Under the pieces are notes generated by a model. It was not told the origin of the DNA. It made no database searches and worked only from the letters and a program-made list of their open reading frames with translations. Of a DNA stretch of 64,000 nt, positions 13,246-37,311 are shown piece after piece. The translations under genes and the position numbers were made by a program. The stretch is from Thermoflexus hugenholtzii JAD2 (GTDB taxonomy: Bacteria; Chloroflexota; Chloroflexia; Chloroflexales; Roseiflexaceae): positions 1 to 64,000 of the forward strand of contig CAMCVW010000010.1 in assembly GCA_945881915.1 (NCBI GenBank). Reading direction: 5' to 3'. Numbering within the stretch: the first letter of the stretch is position 1; each line of letters begins with the position of its first letter.

Positions 13246-13281
13246 TTTATTGGCACAAAAAAACGAGGCACCCGCCTCGAA

Positions 13282-13477
13282 CCTGTAACCTGTAACCTGT
13301 AACCTGTAACCTGTAACCTGTAACCTGTAACCTGCAACCTGTAACCTGTAACCTGTAACCTGTAACCTGTAACCTGTAACCTGTAACCTGTAACCTGTAA
13401 CCTGTAACCTGTAACCTGCAACCTGTAACCTGTAACCTGCAACCTGTAACCTGTAACCTGTAACCTGTAACCTGTAA
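13282..13477. repeat. 28-copy heptanucleotide minisatellite CCTGTAA
   Basis: Exactly 196 bases made of 28 tandem copies of CCTGTAA. Three copies carry the single change CCTGCAA (13331, 13415 and 13436); the rest are identical. Because seven is not a multiple of three, every frame reads a seven-residue repeat without stops on the minus strand, which creates spurious open frames. The array lies between the Nudix gene and the 3' end of the ligase gene. Confidence 0.97.
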
Positions 13478-27606: not shown

Positions 27607-28581
27607 CTAGACCTTGTCCCAGAAGTGGCAGGCAGCCCAGCGTCCAGGCGTTTTTTCTTCGAGGGCGGGTTCGTTCGTTTTACACAAATCCGTTGCCATC
27701 CAGCAACGCGTATGGAATCGACAACCGCTCGGCGGGTTGGATGGGCTCGGTACGTCGCCCTGGAGCACGATGCGCTCGCGGTTGGCCGTTGGATGTGGTA
27801 CCGGGACAGCGGCTTTGAGGGCTTTGGTATAGGGGTGGAATGGCCGTGCAAAGATGTCGGCCCGTGGCGCCAATTCGACCATTTTGCCCAGATACATCAC
27901 ACCGATGCGCGTCGACACATACTCGACCACTGCCAAGTTATGCGCCACAAAAAGGTACGTCAAACCCAACTCGTGCTGCAATTGGATGAGCAGATTGAGT
28001 ACCTGTGCCTGAATACTGACGTCGAGCGCCGATACCGGCTCGTCGAGCACCAACAACTCGGGCTCCATGATGAGTGCCCGGGCGATGCCGATGCGTTGGC
28101 GTTGCCCGCCCGAGAACTCATGCGGGAATCGTTCGAGTAGCGCCGGCGACAGCCCGACTTTGGCCATAATGGCTTCGACTTTTGCTTGCTGTTCGTCACG
28201 ATTGCCCACGCCGTGGATGACCAGGCCTTCTGAAATACTTTCGGACACGGTGCGGCGCGGATCGAGCGATCCATACGGGTCTTGGAAGATAATCTGCATC
28301 TTGCGTCGGAATGCTTTTTGTTGGCTTCGATTTGCCGACAACACCGGTTCGCCATTGAACAATACTTCGCCGGCGGTCGCAGGGATGAGGCGCAACAGGG
28401 TGCGGCTGACCGTGGTTTTGCCACAGCCGGACTCACCGACCAACCCCAGCGTCTCGCCTTTGTTGATGCTGAACGACACATCGTCTACGGCGCGCACCTG
28501 ACCGGTGACGCGACGCAGCACACCGGTGCGAATCGGGAAGTATTTGACCAAGTTTTTGACTTCGAGCAGTGGTGTGGTCAT
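27607..28581 (-). CDS. oppF: oligopeptide ABC transporter ATP-binding protein OppF
   Basis: A 324-residue ATPase of the dipeptide/oligopeptide importer family. Walker A is GESGCGKTT, the Q-loop FQDPYGSLDPR, the signature EFSGGQRQRIGIARAL and Walker B LLVLDEPVSALD. The C-terminal oligopeptide/dipeptide extension (GCRFHTRCWMATDLC) carries the cysteines that bind an iron-sulfur cluster in relatives. Start ATG 28581 overlaps the oppD stop by ATGA. It pairs with OppD on the cytoplasmic face of the permease. Confidence 0.95.
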   Translation of the reverse strand: MTTPLLEVKNLVKYFPIRTGVLRRVTGQVRAVDDVSFSINKGETLGLVGESGCGKTTVSRTLLRLIPATAGEVLFNGEPVLSANRSQQKAFRRKMQIIFQDPYGSLDPRRTVSESISEGLVIHGVGNRDEQQAKVEAIMAKVGLSPALLERFPHEFSGGQRQRIGIARALIMEPELLVLDEPVSALDVSIQAQVLNLLIQLQHELGLTYLFVAHNLAVVEYVSTRIGVMYLGKMVELAPRADIFARPFHPYTKALKAAVPVPHPTANRERIVLQGDVPSPSNPPSGCRFHTRCWMATDLCKTNEPALEEKTPGRWAACHFWDKV

Positions 28582-29564
28582 TGTGCAGGTGCTCCCTCTG
28601 AGGCATACAGCCAACATCGGACTTCTCGACCCTGGTGCTGCACAAGCGGTGGCGCCTTGTCGCAGGCGTCGTAGCGTTTGGTGCAGCGGTCGGCGAAGCG
28701 GCAGCCGCGCGGTGGCTCAATCATCATCGGCACGGTACCCTCGATGGCGTGCAAGGTGCGGTTACTCGCATCACCGAGGACGGGCATTGAGTTGAGCAGT
28801 GCCACCGAATACGGGTGGAGTGGTGTTTCGAAGAGTTCGTGGACCGAGGCGTTTTCGACAATCTGACCGGCATACATCACGATGACCCGATCGGCCATTT
28901 CGGCAATCACGCCCAAATCGTGAGTAATCAACATAATCGATGTGTTGACGGTTTTGCGCAGTTCACGCATCAATTCGAGGATCTGCGCCTGGATGGTCAC
29001 ATCGAGTGCGGTGGTCGGTTCGTCCGCAATCAAGAGCTCTGGATTGCAGGCCAACGCCATGGCAATCATGATGCGCTGTGCTTGCCCGCCAGATATCTCG
29101 TGCGGGTATGAATTGATGCGCTGCTCAGCATCGGGCAAGCGGACCAGCTTGAGTAACTCGATGGTGCGTATTTTGGCCTGCTCGAGGGTCAGATTTTGGT
29201 GAATCTGCAGGGCCTCGGTGATTTGGCTGCCCACCGTATAGACCGGGTTGAGGCACGACGTCGGTTGCTGGAATATCATCGAAATCCGGTTGCCGCGGTA
29301 CGTGCGCATCTGTTCTTCGCTGAGCGTCAACAAATCGGTGCCCGCAAAGCTGATGCTGCCCTCGACGATTTCACCCGGGTCGCCAATCAGACGCATAATC
29401 GACAACGAGGTGACGCTCTTGCCGCTGCCCGATTCGCCCACGATCCCCAGGGTCGTGCCCAACGGCACATCAAAGCTGATGTCGTCGACGGCTTGGACTA
29501 CCCCACCAGGGGTGAAAAAATACGTCTTGAGATTTTTGACGGACAGGAGTGGTTGTGTGGTCAT
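28578..29564 (-). CDS. oppD: oligopeptide ABC transporter ATP-binding protein OppD
   Basis: A 328-residue ATPase with Walker A GESGSGKSVT, Q-loop FQQPTSCLNP, signature EISGGQAQRIMIAMAL and Walker B LLIADEPTTALD, plus the C-terminal GCRFADRCTKRYDAC extension typical of the family. The start overlaps the oppC stop and the stop overlaps the oppF start, both as ATGA, so D and F are made in stoichiometric amounts. Confidence 0.95.
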   Translation of the reverse strand: MTTQPLLSVKNLKTYFFTPGGVVQAVDDISFDVPLGTTLGIVGESGSGKSVTSLSIMRLIGDPGEIVEGSISFAGTDLLTLSEEQMRTYRGNRISMIFQQPTSCLNPVYTVGSQITEALQIHQNLTLEQAKIRTIELLKLVRLPDAEQRINSYPHEISGGQAQRIMIAMALACNPELLIADEPTTALDVTIQAQILELMRELRKTVNTSIMLITHDLGVIAEMADRVIVMYAGQIVENASVHELFETPLHPYSVALLNSMPVLGDASNRTLHAIEGTVPMMIEPPRGCRFADRCTKRYDACDKAPPLVQHQGREVRCWLYASEGAPAQ

Positions 29565-30586
29565 GCTGCGGCACTCCGATCACGAATTGCTTTGAGTAAG
29601 GCATCGCGCTTGGAACGGGTCACTTCGACCTGGACGCGCGGGTCGAGGGCGTCGCGCAGACCATCACCGATGTAGTTGATGGCCAACGAACAAATCAAAA
29701 TCGGCAGTGTCGGCACCAGCGGCATCCATGGGTAGTTGAACATATAACTGTTGGCAAACGACAACATGTTGCCCCAGCTAGGGGTCGGGTCTTGGATGCC
29801 GAACCCGAGGAAGCTGAGCGCTGATTCGGCCACTAGCGAGCCACTCAAACCCAACGTGTAGGCCACGATGATGGGCGGCATCGCGTTGGGCAACACGTGG
29901 GTGATGATGTTGTGCAGGTGCGAAGCGCCCAAGGCACGCGACGATTCGACGTACAACTGCTCGCGGATGGACAAGACCATGCCCCGCACAAACCGGGCCA
30001 CACCGGTCCAACCCAGCGCGATAAAGATGACCATGATCATTACCACCTGCTTACCCTCGCGTTCGTTGATCGCCATGATGGCGCCGACAGCCTGCGATAG
30101 CAATGCGGGGATGGGGATGTCGTCACCGTTTTGGATGGCGATCGAGCCCGCAATCAGGAGTAACGTAAAGGTCGGGAAGGTCGATATGAACTCGATCATG
30201 CGCGAGGTAAACGTATCGATGAAGCCACCGAAGTACCCCGCAATCAAGCCAATCACGATGCCGATGAAGGTCGATACCGTGGTCACGGTTAACGCGGTAG
30301 TCAACGAGACACGGGCTGCATAGATGAGCCGCGTGAAGTAGTCGCGGCCCAGGTGGTCCGTGCCGAACACATGGTACGACCCGTCCTGTGCGCTGCTGAA
30401 TGGCGAGGTATAGGCGTTGTCGAGCGAAATTGCATCGCGTTTGTACGGCGCAATGACGCTGGCAAACATCGATAGGACATAGATGGTCGCTATAAGGTAC
30501 AGGCACCACATCGCAACTCTATGGGTCTTGAAGCGGCGGAAGATGAGCGTCCATTGACTTGCTGGTCGTTGATTCGGTGTCGTCAT
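29561..30586 (-). CDS. oppC: oligopeptide ABC transporter permease OppC
   Basis: A 341-residue permease with an N-terminal cytoplasmic segment, a first span (MWCLYLIATIYVLSMFASVI), a periplasmic loop with HVFGTDHLGRDYFTRLIYAA (split), and the binding-protein-dependent transport domain whose EAA loop reads ESSRALGASHLHNIITHVLP. These features separate OppC from OppB. It is the second permease subunit and is coupled to oppD by an ATGA overlap; oppB ends 13 bases upstream. Confidence 0.94.
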   Translation of the reverse strand: MTTPNQRPASQWTLIFRRFKTHRVAMWCLYLIATIYVLSMFASVIAPYKRDAISLDNAYTSPFSSAQDGSYHVFGTDHLGRDYFTRLIYAARVSLTTALTVTTVSTFIGIVIGLIAGYFGGFIDTFTSRMIEFISTFPTFTLLLIAGSIAIQNGDDIPIPALLSQAVGAIMAINEREGKQVVMIMVIFIALGWTGVARFVRGMVLSIREQLYVESSRALGASHLHNIITHVLPNAMPPIIVAYTLGLSGSLVAESALSFLGFGIQDPTPSWGNMLSFANSYMFNYPWMPLVPTLPILICSLAINYIGDGLRDALDPRVQVEVTRSKRDALLKAIRDRSAAA

Positions 30587-30599
30587 TGATGATTCTTTT

Positions 30600-31799
30600 C
30601 TACGAAAGCCGAATGCGCGGATCGAGGATGCTGTACAAAATATCGGTAATCAAGTACCCCACCAGCAGCAAAAAGATACTCACCATCGTCAATCCCATCG
30701 TGACGCTGTAATCGTTGCGCTCGATGGAGTCGACCAGCAATCTGCCCAATCCTGGCCAATTGAATACCGCCTCGGTAATCGCTGCCCCGCCGAAAAGCTC
30801 GGCCATGACACCGGCCAGCAAGGTGATAAACGGCAAAATTGCATTGCGCAAAGCATGCTTGAGCACGACGGTGCGCTCGCGTAGCCCCTTGGCGCGGGCC
30901 GTGCGTACGTAGTCTTGGCGCAACACTTCGAGCATACCCGAGCGGATAAATCGACTGTAGCCGGCGATATTCACAAACACCAATACACCGAGCGGCATGA
31001 TGAAGTGCAGCACACGGTCGAGCGTCGATGAGGCAATCACCTCGCCGATGTAGGGGATGACGTAGTCTTTGTTGCTGACGGCATTCCCCGGCGGCAGATA
31101 GATAAAGCCTGCTTCTTTTGCACCAACGGCAAACACCAAAATGCAGATGATACCGATGACGAACGTCGGCAATGATGACCCAACGAACGAGACAGTCGTC
31201 ATCGTATAGTCGAAGCGCGAGTACTGCCGCACGGCAGAGTAGATGCCCAAGGGCACACCAATGGCAATCGAAATCAATATTGAAGCGCCCATCAACGTCA
31301 ATGTATATGGCAGCCGACTGGCGATGAGTGTCGAGATTGGGCGGTCACGCAACATGACCTGTGACAGACCGAAGTCGCCGAAGAGAATCCCGCGCGAGGT
31401 GCGCCGATCGACAAGGTTCGCATAGGTAATCGGGACTTCGCACCCTTCTTCGATTATTTCGGTGCGACCATCAGGGTAGCGGAGTCGGACTTTGGCGGGG
31501 ATTTTGCAACCGACCTCGACATCCGCGAGGAATGTCTGACCGGCAATGGTGACCGGGCCAGATGGGAATCCGACCAACCAGCGCGTAAAGCGATACGGGA
31601 CAAACAAATCGAGTTCGAAGCGTTGTTTGATGCGTGCGATGTCGTCGGCCGAGATTTTGTTGCGACCGCTCTGTTGCGTCTGACGCATACCCGTCATCGG
31701 ACCACCCGGTGCGAAGTAGAGCAACACAAAAGAGACCACCGCGGAGGCGATGAGGACGATGAACATTTGAATCAGACGACGGATGAGGAATGTCGCCAT
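30600..31799 (-). CDS. oppB: oligopeptide ABC transporter permease OppB
   Basis: A 399-residue permease that opens with the family start MATFLIRRLIQMFIVLIAS and carries the EAA loop TARAKGLRERTVVLKHALRN. Between the first and second spans there is a long extracytoplasmic insert (residues about 40-150), larger than in the E. coli protein (306 residues) but known in longer members of the family. AGGGAG precedes ATG 31799; the open frame extends to 31901 but that part overlaps the intergenic hairpin. It is separated from oppA by 147 bases containing that hairpin. Confidence 0.93.
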   Translation of the reverse strand: MATFLIRRLIQMFIVLIASAVVSFVLLYFAPGGPMTGMRQTQQSGRNKISADDIARIKQRFELDLFVPYRFTRWLVGFPSGPVTIAGQTFLADVEVGCKIPAKVRLRYPDGRTEIIEEGCEVPITYANLVDRRTSRGILFGDFGLSQVMLRDRPISTLIASRLPYTLTLMGASILISIAIGVPLGIYSAVRQYSRFDYTMTTVSFVGSSLPTFVIGIICILVFAVGAKEAGFIYLPPGNAVSNKDYVIPYIGEVIASSTLDRVLHFIMPLGVLVFVNIAGYSRFIRSGMLEVLRQDYVRTARAKGLRERTVVLKHALRNAILPFITLLAGVMAELFGGAAITEAVFNWPGLGRLLVDSIERNDYSVTMGLTMVSIFLLLVGYLITDILYSILDPRIRLS

Positions 31800-31897: not shown

Positions 31898-31932
31898 ACA
31901 CCCCCCAACATGCAATGCACGTTGGGGGGTGT
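31898..31932 (-). terminator. stable hairpin between oppA and oppB
   Basis: ACACCCCCCAAC at 31898-31909 is the exact reverse complement of GTTGGGGGGTGT at 31921-31932, a 12-bp stem with an 11-base loop, 14 bases after the oppA stop. No U-tract follows on the minus strand, so it more likely stabilises the oppA mRNA or only partly reduces read-through, keeping the binding protein in excess of the membrane parts. Confidence 0.7.
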
Positions 31933-31946
31933 GCGGGTAGGGATGC

Positions 31947-33881
31947 TTACTTGATAAACATGTTCATGTCGACGTGTTCCCAGGTTGGGGAAGCAATCGT
32001 CACGACCTGAACCTTGCCCTTGGCGGCGGCATCGACGACCGATTGGACTTCGGCGCCGGCACCCAGGGTTTCGCTACCGAGGACGTCAATATCGCCGGTC
32101 AGCAATTGAGCGACAGCCTGATTGGTGTCTTCAAAGAACTGAATGGTGATGGTCTTGAGCTTCGGAGCGGTGCCACCGTAGTTTTCGTTGGCTTCGAAGA
32201 CCATCTTCTGGCCTTTTTCCCACGAAACGATTTTGAATGGTCCGTTGCTCCATGGCATTTCGGCCACTTCTGGCAACGTTGGCCAATCCTTGGCAGGTAC
32301 GTCGGCGAGGGTCTTGCCCTTGTAGGCGCCTTCGCTCTCGATTGGCTGCTTGGATGGTGCGGGGCCGAAGCCGCCGGTGTAGAACGTTGGCCACTGCACG
32401 CCCGGCACGAAGACCAGGGTCTGCTTGGTGTCGCTCTCTTGGGTGAAGGTCATGACGGAATCACAGAAGGTGAAGGTGGTTGCGCCGGACTCTGGGTCAC
32501 AAGTGGTCTTGTGGCCGAGTTCGAAGTCAGCCTTGGTCACCGGGGAACCGTCTTGCCACTTCATACCGGGCTTGTACTCGAAGCTGACCGACAACTGCTT
32601 GAGGGTCAATGGTGCAGCGCCGTCCCAAACGACGACTTCGCCGGCTGCATTGGTGACTTCGACGTCTTTGGCCAGAGCAACCGGCTCGCCGGCTGTGCTC
32701 CAGACCATGTCGCCGGCCTTGACTTCGATGTCAGCGTTGGTTGCACCGTCGCCCAATGAAGGCAACTTGGTGAAGCCGACTGCCTGATAGTCGTAGTCCA
32801 GTGAGGTGACAGCCAATTGGCTAATCAACTGCACTGCGGTGACTGCCACTGCGGCGCTCTCGACCAGGGTGTAGAGCGATGCTGGTTCTTGGGTGAAGCC
32901 GAGGACGATAGCGTCCGTGCCCGGCAATTCCCATTCAGCGGCGTTGTGGGTGTAGTATTCGGTTGGGTTTGGCTTGAAGTTCTTCAAGTTCACGTTGGCA
33001 GCAGCTGCCTCGGCGCGGTTGAACAACGGCAAGCTGACCATGTCCTTGGTGAATTCCTGCTGGACGATGGCGTACTGCTTGACGCGCTCGGCGCGGTCCA
33101 ACGTGTTGTTGGCGGCGACGATTGCCTTCGAGGCAGCTTCGTTACACCAGCCCATGCCGTTCTGGCCTTCCCAGTTGTTGCCGGGAGTTGGGATCTGGTT
33201 ACAGGCGTAGAGCGAGATGCCGCCGGGATCAGCAGAACCGACCCATGCGAATGCGCCCAATTCGTAGTCACGACGGGACAAGCCGGTCGTGTCGCCGAAC
33301 CACCAGGATGCTGGTGCGTGCGTGCGGGCAATCGTGATGCCACAGTTGTCTGCCAACTGCTGCTCGAGCACGGTGGCCCAGGTCTGGCGGAAGCCAGCGT
33401 TGGTCGTCGTGAAGCGCAAGAACAATGGCGCGCCGGTCTCGACGTTAGCGCCTTCTTCGTAGCCGGCTTCCTTCAACAACGCCTTGCCCTTTTCGGGGTC
33501 AAATGCGTAGGTGGTGATGCCTTCGGTGGCTGCTGCCCAATGGCTCTTGGGCAAGAACGTGTCCATCAACAGACCCTGCTGCTGCTCGTCGCTCAAGAAC
33601 GGATAGACCGACTTGATCAATTCAGGACGGTTCGTGCAGAAGGCAATTGCTTGCCGGATGCGCACGTCGCCCAACAACGGATGCGGTGTGGTGAATGATG
33701 TGTCCTTGACTTCCGGTGCGACTGCTTCTACTGGGGCGACCGGCTCGGCGGTCTCCCTCACCACGACGGTTTCCTTGATGACTTGCACTTCTGGGGCACT
33801 GCCACAGGCTGCAACCATCGGGATAACCAATGCCGTGATGAACAGCAATCCTGCACGACGCAACAACTGTTGCTTCAACAT
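31947..33881 (-). CDS. oppA: lipoprotein solute-binding protein of family 5, circularly permuted
   Basis: A 644-residue lipoprotein: signal peptide with lipobox VAAC (Cys26), a Val/Glu/Pro spacer to about 61, then the ligand-binding domain. Unlike normal OppA/DppA, the domain order is swapped. Residues 66-318 begin with HPLLGDVRIRQAIAFCTNR and DPEKGKALLKEAGYEEG, which in OppA/DppA start the C-terminal half. Residues 321-644 begin with TDAIVLGFTQEPASLY, the usual N-terminal start, and run through WQDGSPVTKADF and NGPFKIVSWEKG to TWEHVDMNMF, exactly where the ordinary protein would continue into HPL-DVR. The halves are complete, so the fold can close as a circular permutant. It is the first gene of the opp operon. 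Confidence 0.9.
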   Translation of the reverse strand: MLKQQLLRRAGLLFITALVIPMVAACGSAPEVQVIKETVVVRETAEPVAPVEAVAPEVKDTSFTTPHPLLGDVRIRQAIAFCTNRPELIKSVYPFLSDEQQQGLLMDTFLPKSHWAAATEGITTYAFDPEKGKALLKEAGYEEGANVETGAPLFLRFTTTNAGFRQTWATVLEQQLADNCGITIARTHAPASWWFGDTTGLSRRDYELGAFAWVGSADPGGISLYACNQIPTPGNNWEGQNGMGWCNEAASKAIVAANNTLDRAERVKQYAIVQQEFTKDMVSLPLFNRAEAAAANVNLKNFKPNPTEYYTHNAAEWELPGTDAIVLGFTQEPASLYTLVESAAVAVTAVQLISQLAVTSLDYDYQAVGFTKLPSLGDGATNADIEVKAGDMVWSTAGEPVALAKDVEVTNAAGEVVVWDGAAPLTLKQLSVSFEYKPGMKWQDGSPVTKADFELGHKTTCDPESGATTFTFCDSVMTFTQESDTKQTLVFVPGVQWPTFYTGGFGPAPSKQPIESEGAYKGKTLADVPAKDWPTLPEVAEMPWSNGPFKIVSWEKGQKMVFEANENYGGTAPKLKTITIQFFEDTNQAVAQLLTGDIDVLGSETLGAGAEVQSVVDAAAKGKVQVVTIASPTWEHVDMNMFIK

Positions 33882-34273: not shown

Positions 34274-34418
34274 TTGCTCGGCTGAATCTAGAAGCATTTG
34301 GCTTTCTGAAGACGTCGCAAATGTGTCCGACGGCTTGTAGTACAGACGTTTTTTACGACTGCACTGACAGCCATTGTTTTTTCTCAATTCCGTTTGATGT
34401 ATGGGTAAGGGGTTCGCA

Positions 34419-36704
34419 ATGACACTCGAAGAAAAAATGGAACAACCGGCATCGACGTCCAACAACGACGATGCAGTAACAGCCCCTACGACCATCCTCA
34501 AACGCGATGGGCGCCGGATGGAATTCGATGCAGACCGCATCGAAAAGGCCATCACGCGCTGCTTCCAGAGCTTTGGACGCGAGCCGAGTACCGCCGTCAC
34601 GGAACTGACCCGCCGTGTGGTCAACATCGTCGCCGCCAAAGCATCCCGCGGCGTACCGAGTGTCGAGGAAGTCCAAGACATCGTCGAAATGGTGCTCCAA
34701 GCAGCTGGTGAGTTCGAGGCAGCCAAGCGCTACATTTTGTACCGCGCTGACCGTGCCAAAGAACGCGAACGTCGCCCGGTCCCCGACGACGTACGTACCG
34801 CTTTTGCTGCATCCGACGTCTACTTCCCCACCCCACTGCAGAAGTTCCAGTTCTTCGATAAGTACTCGCGCTTCAACTATGACCTCGCCCGGCGCGAAAC
34901 ATGGATCGAAACGGTCGATCGCTCCGTCGATTACCTGCACGAACTCGCCGGTGATCGCCTGCCCAGCGAGACCTATCAGCGCATCCGCAAAGCCATCCTC
35001 GAGATGCGCGCGATGCCCTCGATGCGTCTGTTGGCCATGGCAGGTCCTGCTGCCCGCCGCAACAACATTGCCATCTACAACTGCTCATACCAGCCCGTCG
35101 AATCAATCGATTCATTCGTCGAGGCTCTGATAATCTCGATGGCTGGGTGTGGCGTCGGCTTCTCGGTTGAGAGCAAGTATGTCGAAAACTTCCCACGCAT
35201 CAAGCGTCAGACCGGTCACGCCCCGTCCCACTTCACCGTCGAAGACTCGGCCGAAGGTTGGGCTGATGCACTGCGCTTCGGTATGCAGACCTGGTTCGAC
35301 GGTGGCGACGCGCGCTTCGACCTGTCGGGCTTGCGTCCCGCTGGTATCGCCCTCAAAATCAAGGGCGGTCGTGCCTCCGGCCCCGAGCCGTTGCGCGTGA
35401 CTCTGGACTTCATGCGCCGCCGCATTCTGTCACGCCAGGGCTCGTTCCTGCGGCCCATCGACGCCCACGACATGATGTGTGTGGTCGGGAATGCTGCAGT
35501 ATCGGGTGGTGTACGCCGGACGGCCATGATTTCGCTCTTTGATCCCGATGATACCGAGATGCTCTCGTCCAAGAGCGGCGACTTCGAGCGCGAAAACAGC
35601 CACCGCTGGAATGCCAACAACTCGGCCGTCTGGCCAGTCGGTGGGCTCACCCAGCAGGCGTTCATTCATCAATTCATGGAAATGGTCGACTCCGGTCGTG
35701 GCGAGCCCGGCATCTTCAATCGCGAAGGCGCCAACACGATGAAGCCCGCCCGACGCAAAGAAGCCGACTTCGGTACCAATCCCTGTGGCGAAATCAACCT
35801 GCGCCCGTGGCAGTTCTGTAACCTCACCGCTGCAGTGGCCCGCGTCGACGACACCTTCGAATCCCTGCGCGAAAAGGTCGAAGTCGCTACCATCATCGGC
35901 AGCATCCAGTCGATGGCCACCGACTTCCCCGGTTTGCGCCCGCAATGGCGCGCCAACTGCGAAGAAGAGCGCCTCCTCGGCGTCGACATCACCGGCCAGA
36001 TGGACAGCGCCGCCGCCCAAGATCCACAGTTCAAACGCCAGCTGCGTGAGATTTCGATCGAAGTCAACCGCGCAACTGCCGCCAAGCTGGGCATCAACCA
36101 GTCGGCTTCCATCACCTGCGTCAAGCCCAGCGGCAACTCGTCGCAACTCCTCAACTGTGCCAGCGGTCTGCACCCTCGTTGGGCCCCGTACTACATCCGC
36201 AACGTGCGTGTGTCGATTCACTCACCCATCTACAAAGTTTTGCGCGATGCCGGCGTCCCCATGGACCCCGAAAACGGCCAGAACGTTGATAATGCCACCA
36301 CTTGGGTCGTCCACTTCCCGATGAAGGCCCCAGAAGGTGCGACCACCCGCGCCGACGTCAGCGCCCTCCAGCAGAGCGAGTTCTGGTTGCAGAACAAACT
36401 CTTCTGGACCGAGCACAACCCATCCGTCACCATCACCTACAAGCCCGACGAGGTCTTGGAATTGATGAAGTGGGTCTGGGAGCATCGCGAGCAGGTCGGC
36501 GGTATGTCGTTCTTGCCCAGCTTCGATGCAAACTACGCCCAGATGCCGTATGTCGAAATCGAACAGAACGAATACGAGCGCCTCGCCGCCGAATTTCCCG
36601 AAATCGACTTCTCCAAAGTCTGGCGCTACGAAGAGAACGACCTCACCAACGCAGCCCAAGAACTCGCCTGCGTCGGCGGTTCCTGTGAAGTCTCACTCAC
36701 CTAA
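34419..36704 (+). CDS. nrdJ: adenosylcobalamin-dependent ribonucleotide reductase (class II, monomeric type)
   Basis: A 761-residue class II reductase that makes deoxyribonucleotides from ribonucleotides with adenosylcobalamin. An ATP-cone regulatory domain opens the protein (ILKRDGRRMEFDADRIEKAI). Active-site cysteines are Cys222 (IYNCSYQP), Cys456 (TNPCGEI) and Cys467 (WQFCNLT), and the C-terminal electron-shuttle pair is Cys751-x4-Cys756 (ACVGGSCEV). This matches Lactobacillus RTPR, which however lacks the ATP cone. ATG 34419 follows AAGGGG and is preferred over ATG 34401. Likely NrdR control is described with the promoter. A terminator follows. Confidence 0.95.
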   Translation: MTLEEKMEQPASTSNNDDAVTAPTTILKRDGRRMEFDADRIEKAITRCFQSFGREPSTAVTELTRRVVNIVAAKASRGVPSVEEVQDIVEMVLQAAGEFEAAKRYILYRADRAKERERRPVPDDVRTAFAASDVYFPTPLQKFQFFDKYSRFNYDLARRETWIETVDRSVDYLHELAGDRLPSETYQRIRKAILEMRAMPSMRLLAMAGPAARRNNIAIYNCSYQPVESIDSFVEALIISMAGCGVGFSVESKYVENFPRIKRQTGHAPSHFTVEDSAEGWADALRFGMQTWFDGGDARFDLSGLRPAGIALKIKGGRASGPEPLRVTLDFMRRRILSRQGSFLRPIDAHDMMCVVGNAAVSGGVRRTAMISLFDPDDTEMLSSKSGDFERENSHRWNANNSAVWPVGGLTQQAFIHQFMEMVDSGRGEPGIFNREGANTMKPARRKEADFGTNPCGEINLRPWQFCNLTAAVARVDDTFESLREKVEVATIIGSIQSMATDFPGLRPQWRANCEEERLLGVDITGQMDSAAAQDPQFKRQLREISIEVNRATAAKLGINQSASITCVKPSGNSSQLLNCASGLHPRWAPYYIRNVRVSIHSPIYKVLRDAGVPMDPENGQNVDNATTWVVHFPMKAPEGATTRADVSALQQSEFWLQNKLFWTEHNPSVTITYKPDEVLELMKWVWEHREQVGGMSFLPSFDANYAQMPYVEIEQNEYERLAAEFPEIDFSKVWRYEENDLTNAAQELACVGGSCEVSLT

Positions 36705-36757: not shown

Positions 36758-36768
36758 GCATACCATAC

Positions 36769-37311
36769 GAAAAGCAAGAGGGCAGACCTCGACTTTCCGC
36801 ACAAATGAGTGCAGATGCCGGACGAGCGTCATGCCTGCGCAGCGCTGAAATTCAGTGTGTCGCGTGGAATCCGAGCCGCAGATTTTTCACATGATGCTGG
36901 CCAAAAGCAAGACGGCAGACCTGGACTTCCCGCAATATTATGTGCAGATGCCGAACGAGAGTCATGCCTGCGCAGAGCTGAAACTCAGTGTGTCGAGGGG
37001 ATCCGAGCCGCAGATTTTTCACCTGATGCTGGCGAAAAGCAAGCGGGCAGACCTGGACTTCCCGCAACATGTTGTGCAGATGCGGGACGAGAGTCATGCC
37101 TGCGCAGAGTGAAAATTACACTGTCGAGTGGAATCCAAGCCGCAGATTTTTCACATGATGCTGGCGAAAAGCAAGCGGGCAGACCTCGACTTCCCGCAAT
37201 ATTTTGTGCAGATGCCGGACGAGAGTCATGCCTGCGTAAAGTGAAAATCACTGTGTCGAGTGGAATCTGAGCCGCAGAATTTTCACCTGATGCTGGCGAA
37301 AAGCAAGAGGG
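36769..37311. repeat. four-copy 132-bp tandem repeat array
   Basis: The unit AAAAGCAAG..GGCAGACCT..GACTTCCCGCA recurs with its GGCAGACC anchors at about 36782, 36915, 37047 and 37179 (periods 133, 132, 132). A fifth unit is cut after AAAAGCAAGAGGG near 37311. Units differ at scattered positions. Each has GTCATGCCTGCG, GTGTCGAG and GTGAAAAT...ATTTTTCAC, the last able to form a hairpin. Since 132 is divisible by three, open frames run through on both strands, but none has a ribosome-binding site or a known fold. Nothing else is seen in 36758-37480. Confidence 0.9.

Follow-up and report, generated by a model that had tools for sequence, protein, structure and literature searches.

The gene at 31947 to 33881 encodes a lipoprotein of the family-5 binding-protein type in which the two halves of the chain stand in swapped order. 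We interpret it as the substrate-binding protein of an Opp/Dpp-type ABC importer that underwent circular permutation once, in an ancient event within the Chloroflexota, and give this reading a probability of roughly 0.88. The window, i.e. the whole stretch of DNA that was analysed, comprises 64,000 nucleotides, and all features in the two lists below lie on its reverse strand.

Layout and predicted fold of the permuted protein

A first-pass annotation had described a protein that starts, behind its lipoprotein signal, with the C-terminal half, then continues into the canonical N-terminal start and ends within the old first half. The intact open reading frame of 644 aa has exactly this layout: the lipobox VAAC26 is followed by a tether, by TTPHPLLGDVRIRQAIA of the C-half and by EWELPGTDAIVLGFTQEPASLY, the old N-terminal start, and the chain ends with TWEHVDMNMFIK directly before the stop codon. 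The parts of the gene are as follows:

31947 to 33881 (−): circularly permuted family-5 solute-binding lipoprotein, 644 aa, intact frame, swapped relative to 2d5w, DppA and Pfam SBP_bac_5, with an AlphaFold model
33804 to 33881 (−): signal peptide and lipobox VAAC (Cys26), aa 1-26, assigned from the sequence; Cys26 at least 90 % conserved
33693 to 33803 (−): disordered tether from the lipid anchor to the new start, aa 27-63 (pLDDT below 50 for aa 22-60)
32919 to 33692 (−): former C-terminal half, now first, aa 64-321 (DppA and Pfam matches)
32904 to 32933 (−): junction of the old C-terminus and the old N-terminus, aa 317-326, WELPGTDAIV (compared in 42 relatives and modelled)
31950 to 32918 (−): former N-terminal half, now last, aa 322-644 (folds alone; 2d5w and DppA matches)
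within 31950 to 32918 (−): cut hinge strand, the final strand of the N-half, aa 624-639

A phmmer search against solved structures aligned aa 70-304 with residues 322-565 of 2d5w and aa 428-642 with residues 79-311, again in swapped order. The whole protein matched Pfam SBP_bac_5 significantly (156.1 bits, cut-off 32.4), with aa 1-321 on model positions 205-355 and aa 322-644 on positions 20-207 (of 368). Because each of these parts is present once, so that the model is covered once with the cut near position 206, each half is complete and single, as the annotation had held. The order of SBP_bac_5 and cluster C, with the N-half preceding the C-half, is reversed in the window protein, which is a derived, non-colinear variant of the family. 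As in a natural permutation, the sequence is rotated and complete, the old termini are joined and the new termini interrupt what is an unbroken stretch in relatives.

Structure prediction, which had been proposed as a check, yielded one confident protein. The full-length AlphaFold2 model, built with 42 permuted sequences, reached a pLDDT of 87.6 and a pTM of 0.82, and its C-half (aa 66-320) matched DppA 272-507 with a Z-score of 22.2 (3.3 Å over 228 aa). Folded alone, the N-half had a pLDDT of 90.7 and matched 2d5w (Z 21.8) as well as DppA from residue 1 (Z 19.4). All top structure matches of the predicted halves belong to cluster C, in line with the Pfam assignment to SBP_bac_5. The pTM, together with the separate match of each half to its linear counterpart, points to one bilobed unit. 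The last strand (aa 624-639) was confident in the whole model and not in the isolated N-half, which would be explained by packing of the severed hinge strand against the other half. The cut at the inter-lobe hinge, where the annotation had seen it, is borne out by sequence, profiles and predicted structure alike, and the new termini are at the site where the first hinge strand formerly entered the C-lobe. The permuted protein would work as a normal Venus flytrap with a hinge strand that is no longer covalently continuous, and its lipid tether would emerge at the border of hinge and C-lobe instead of the N-lobe.

The opp operon and the enlarged OppB loop

The main permuted lineage heads oppBCDF. 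In the window these neighbours are intact and coupled, as had been noticed in the first pass, with start and stop codons that overlap from oppC on:

31898 to 31932 (−): strong perfect hairpin in the gap that separates oppB from the gene of the binding protein (−31.4 kcal/mol, z −5.0)
30600 to 31799 (−): oppB permease with an enlarged TM1-TM2 periplasmic loop of 111 aa (BPD_transp_1, 151 bits)
31380 to 31568 (−): insert in the periplasmic loop of OppB, two invariant Cys, restricted to permuted operons
29561 to 30586 (−): oppC permease (BPD_transp_1 and OppC_N)
28578 to 29564 (−): oppD ATPase, 4-base overlap with oppC (ABC_tran and oligo_HPY)
27607 to 28581 (−): oppF ATPase, start at the ATG of MTTPLLEVK as picked by the 4-base overlap with oppD (ABC_tran and oligo_HPY)

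The hairpin possibly sets unequal expression. Two repeats were also observed in the window: a tandem array at 36768-37311 (132-bp unit, 4.1 copies, 88 % matching), which follows the long ORF 34401-36704 directly downstream, and 28 copies of the heptamer AACCTGT at 13280-13477 (96 % matching).

With an E. coli OppB sequence solely as a ruler for the loop borders, the TM1-TM2 periplasmic loop measured 98-114 aa next to 83 permuted proteins (counted as distinct loops) and 46-82 aa next to 8 linear proteins. The remaining four long loops come from permuted operons whose upstream gene has a frameshift, is truncated by the end of a contig or overlaps. The insert comprises about 50 residues with two invariant Cys and invariant flanks and is placed by alignment between the scoop region and the GDFG motif that follows. 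In the OppB tree, where rows were labelled by score and loop lengths checked separately, the insert-bearing proteins form one clade, and the OppBs of L105 (the nearest linear relative, see below) and of other linear operons branch just outside. A profile of the insert matched 44 of 400 phylum genomes, namely the 43 with the permuted gene and G059, whose contig stops 105 bases past OppB; this contig end aside, no genome among the 400 carried the insert without the permuted gene.

In the DppABCDF system of E. coli, the scoop motif of DppB (TM1-TM2 region) enters the inter-lobe cleft of docked DppA (PMC12136057). By analogy, we infer that the insert may be linked to docking; adjoining the scoop region, it would adapt docking or sealing to the permuted geometry. 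The first-pass annotation had supposed an effect of the permutation on closure or on the contact with the permease, and the enlarged OppB loop makes this idea concrete and would fit a co-adaptation of permutation and insert. One co-adapted system, in which the tether and the ends at the hinge changed opening and docking, the OppB domain grips or gates and a distinct class of peptide-type importer arose, is a tentative proposal to which we would give somewhat less than even odds.

The permutation could also be selectively neutral, with a protein that works exactly like its linear counterpart and an insert that is an unrelated passenger of the operon. Because permutation and insert share one operon and one branch, they could simply have been inherited together, a serious rival that is quite conceivable if short of probable, and both the tight gene linkage and a pocket motif common to the permuted proteins and their linear sister (AWVGQADPGG..NNWEGQN.MGWCN) are in agreement with it. 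Against neutrality, the insert is never seen apart from the permuted gene and has been kept in every permuted operon checked, with its invariant Cys and flanks, in several families of the phylum.

At loci of Anaerolineales, among them L055, L059, L073 and L102, a linear family-5 binding protein is encoded just after oppF or just ahead of the permuted gene, so that a permuted and a linear protein may both deliver to one translocator.

Origin, conservation and spread

Separate maximum-likelihood trees were calculated for the N-half and the C-half. The permuted proteins included form one clade in both (100/99 and 100/100), and in both the nearest linear relative is L105:9652-11550 of genome G048, with supports of 100/98 (N-half) and 95/94 (C-half). 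Larger trees of each half agreed with this placement. This linear sister is colinear with 2d5w and, like the window protein, has the pocket motif and heads its own oppBCDF operon, whose OppD and OppF are 65-67 % identical to those of the window. It differs in its linear order, in an OppB loop of 64 aa without insert and in lacking the Cys82/Cys180 pair. As both halves share this sister, one gene was permuted once and not two genes fused, and since the wider relatives are linear, the linear order is the ancestral state. Where the permuted protein ends with WEHVDMNMFIK and starts with TTPHPLLGDVRIRQA, L105 reads WEHMDFNFNR-TDDLTQPSLLADLVIRQA; set against the two ends of the permuted chain, WEHMDFNFNRTDDLTQPSLLADLVIRQA of L105 places the ancestral linker on both sides of the cut. 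Permutations usually arise when a gene is duplicated in tandem and the outer halves are then lost. Here, the linear gene would have taken this route, while the signal peptide was kept; no duplication intermediate was seen among the sequences compared.

A fusion of halves from two paralogous binding proteins would fit the stronger divergence of the N-half from the linear sister (31 % identity vs 49 % for the C-half) and the second, linear binding protein that is often nearby in Anaerolineales. However, the separate half-trees recover the same sister and keep the neighbouring linear proteins distant in both, and on this concordance we rejected the fusion as improbable.

The permuted protein is conserved in its joints. 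From W317 to I324 the junction has 8-9 residues in 42/42 relatives, and the C-terminus follows 9-12 residues past the invariant E635 (exactly ten in 39/42). The tether from the lipobox to the new start, with 23-74 aa in relatives, is the sole freely varying length among those compared. A domain-swapped dimer or oligomer, in which each cleft takes its C-half and its N-half from different chains, would be compatible with a monomer prediction, and the cut in the hinge does remove the covalent link by which the two halves of a chain are normally made to pair with each other. Nevertheless, only a short junction, modelled with high confidence (pLDDT 93-97), connects the old termini, the monomer model is confident overall, and we consider such swapping improbable.

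C461 and C473 are invariant in the permuted set. In the aligned linear relatives, C82 and C180 are either both present or both absent, which suggests a disulfide, and C227/C246 covary likewise; the three invariant Cys pairs of the permuted set may form disulfides within the halves. Cys82/Cys180 was also considered as a staple specific to the permuted form and rejected, the pair being found in many linear relatives too.

The spread was followed in 60 near relatives and 400 genomes of the phylum; the closest relatives are Roseiflexaceae-named metagenome bins. Within the window's order, two families (f1, f4) often have the permuted gene, and it was not found in the sampled genomes of two others (f2, f3); four further families of the phylum have it as well. 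The collection finally comprised 100 distinct permuted and 53 distinct linear sequences, so the search for further permuted proteins that had been suggested revealed a distribution across the Chloroflexota. A scan of about 85,000 GTDB species, based on exact 8-residue patterns that distant permuted proteins elsewhere could escape, yielded 69 loci. All loci with both halves of the close family were permuted and of Chloroflexota type apart from a record labelled Singulisphaera, which is 81 % identical to the window protein and therefore probably a mislabelled bin; the single match in Acidimicrobiales is a distant linear protein. In plasmid records, no single place covered 80 % of the query.

With a dN/dS of about 0.11-0.16 against close relatives, the permuted gene is under purifying selection, and it is retained in dozens of species. 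An assembly error that misjoined a normal tandem pair of binding-protein genes in a metagenome bin, the case that the annotation had named against itself, or a pseudogene has a negligible probability: the source genome is a 63-contig assembly and two relatives have frameshifted copies, but the same order recurs in 100 distinct sequences from many independent assemblies, single-contig genomes included, with this low dN/dS and conserved lengths of junction and C-terminus, and on this independent conservation an artefact was ruled out.

Permuted genes at L137:4550-6749 and L138:4303-6343 (G296 and G054) are split into two overlapping frames by a frameshift or a sequencing error. Permuted paralogs at L107:7035-9500 and L106:8431-9675 had no opp homologue in the stretch examined and carry a C-terminal extension ending in YLPIINR or FLPMVMR, and L106 has kept the C-half and lacks most of the N-half; these two resemble a binding domain that has been put to use outside a transporter. 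At L108:7887-9830 and L139:4412-6310, divergent paralogs of the permuted type (about 35 % identical) were without a neighbouring opp permease in the stretch examined, and downstream of L139 lies a linear binding protein of 958 aa with an extra N-terminal region.

Ligand type and comparison with known systems

The NCBIfam equivalogs were missed by far (DppA: 49.5 vs 1005 bits; Opp4A: 109.9 vs 650 bits). Asp408 of DppA (Asp436 in the precursor) has no counterpart in the phmmer alignment, which is uncertain there; position 156, aligned to DppA Arg355 (Arg383 in the precursor), is K/R/E/S/Q in relatives and position 216 is Q/E/D/S, likewise in uncertain parts of the alignment. From the sequence, the canonical Arg355/Asp408 ligand pair of DppA is not evidently kept. 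Because of the missed cut-offs and this pair, the term 'oligopeptide-binding' of the first-pass annotation holds as a family name only: the family-5 type stands, the equivalence to DppA or OppA does not. According to its title, the structure of 2d5w, the best structural relative, contains a pentapeptide, so that import of a peptide-like solute is predicted, and as the pocket motif is shared with the linear sister, the type of ligand probably predates the permutation.

Here, a large binding protein of the peptide type is cut at its hinge. The event can be assigned to one branch, the nearest linear relative has survived next to the same set of transporter genes, and the permease shows a paired change. 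This makes the importance of a continuous hinge strand for flytrap closure testable, as well as the co-evolution of binding protein and permease. Domain annotation and profile searches that assume colinearity will misread permuted proteins of this kind.

Biosensors commonly use binding proteins that were permuted by design, but natural permutations are, to our knowledge, rarely described. In the literature searched, which covered few subscription papers, we found no report of a permuted family-5 or cluster C binding protein. Natural permutation of a binding protein as such is already known from TpMglB-2 (below); the family-5 case is new within that literature.

The oligopeptide-binding protein 2d5w of Thermus thermophilus is the best PDB match for both halves and has a similar motif (NN.[QE]GQN..GW), but is linear. 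DppA and DppABCDF of E. coli (1dpp, 8z1y) share the two half folds and the gene set with the window; in contrast to the window protein, DppA has the linear order, and its ligand residues are not evidently shared. The TM1-TM2 periplasmic region of DppB contacts the binding protein (PMC12136057), and the same region holds the insert in the OppB of the window, whereas it was not seen in the E. coli OppB used as ruler. The naturally permuted TpMglB-2 (Tp0684) of Treponema pallidum, described as 'Type Ic / cluster Bc' (PMC4990184), resembles the window protein in being a lipid-tethered, clade-conserved component of an ABC importer, and its authors also proposed anchoring as a reason for the permutation (PMC4990184). 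TpMglB-2 has a cluster B sugar-binding fold in which the strand order of the N-lobe is permuted (PMC4990184), whereas the window protein is assigned to cluster C (family 5), has whole halves exchanged by a cut at the inter-lobe hinge and comes with a known linear sister and a paired insert in a permease loop.
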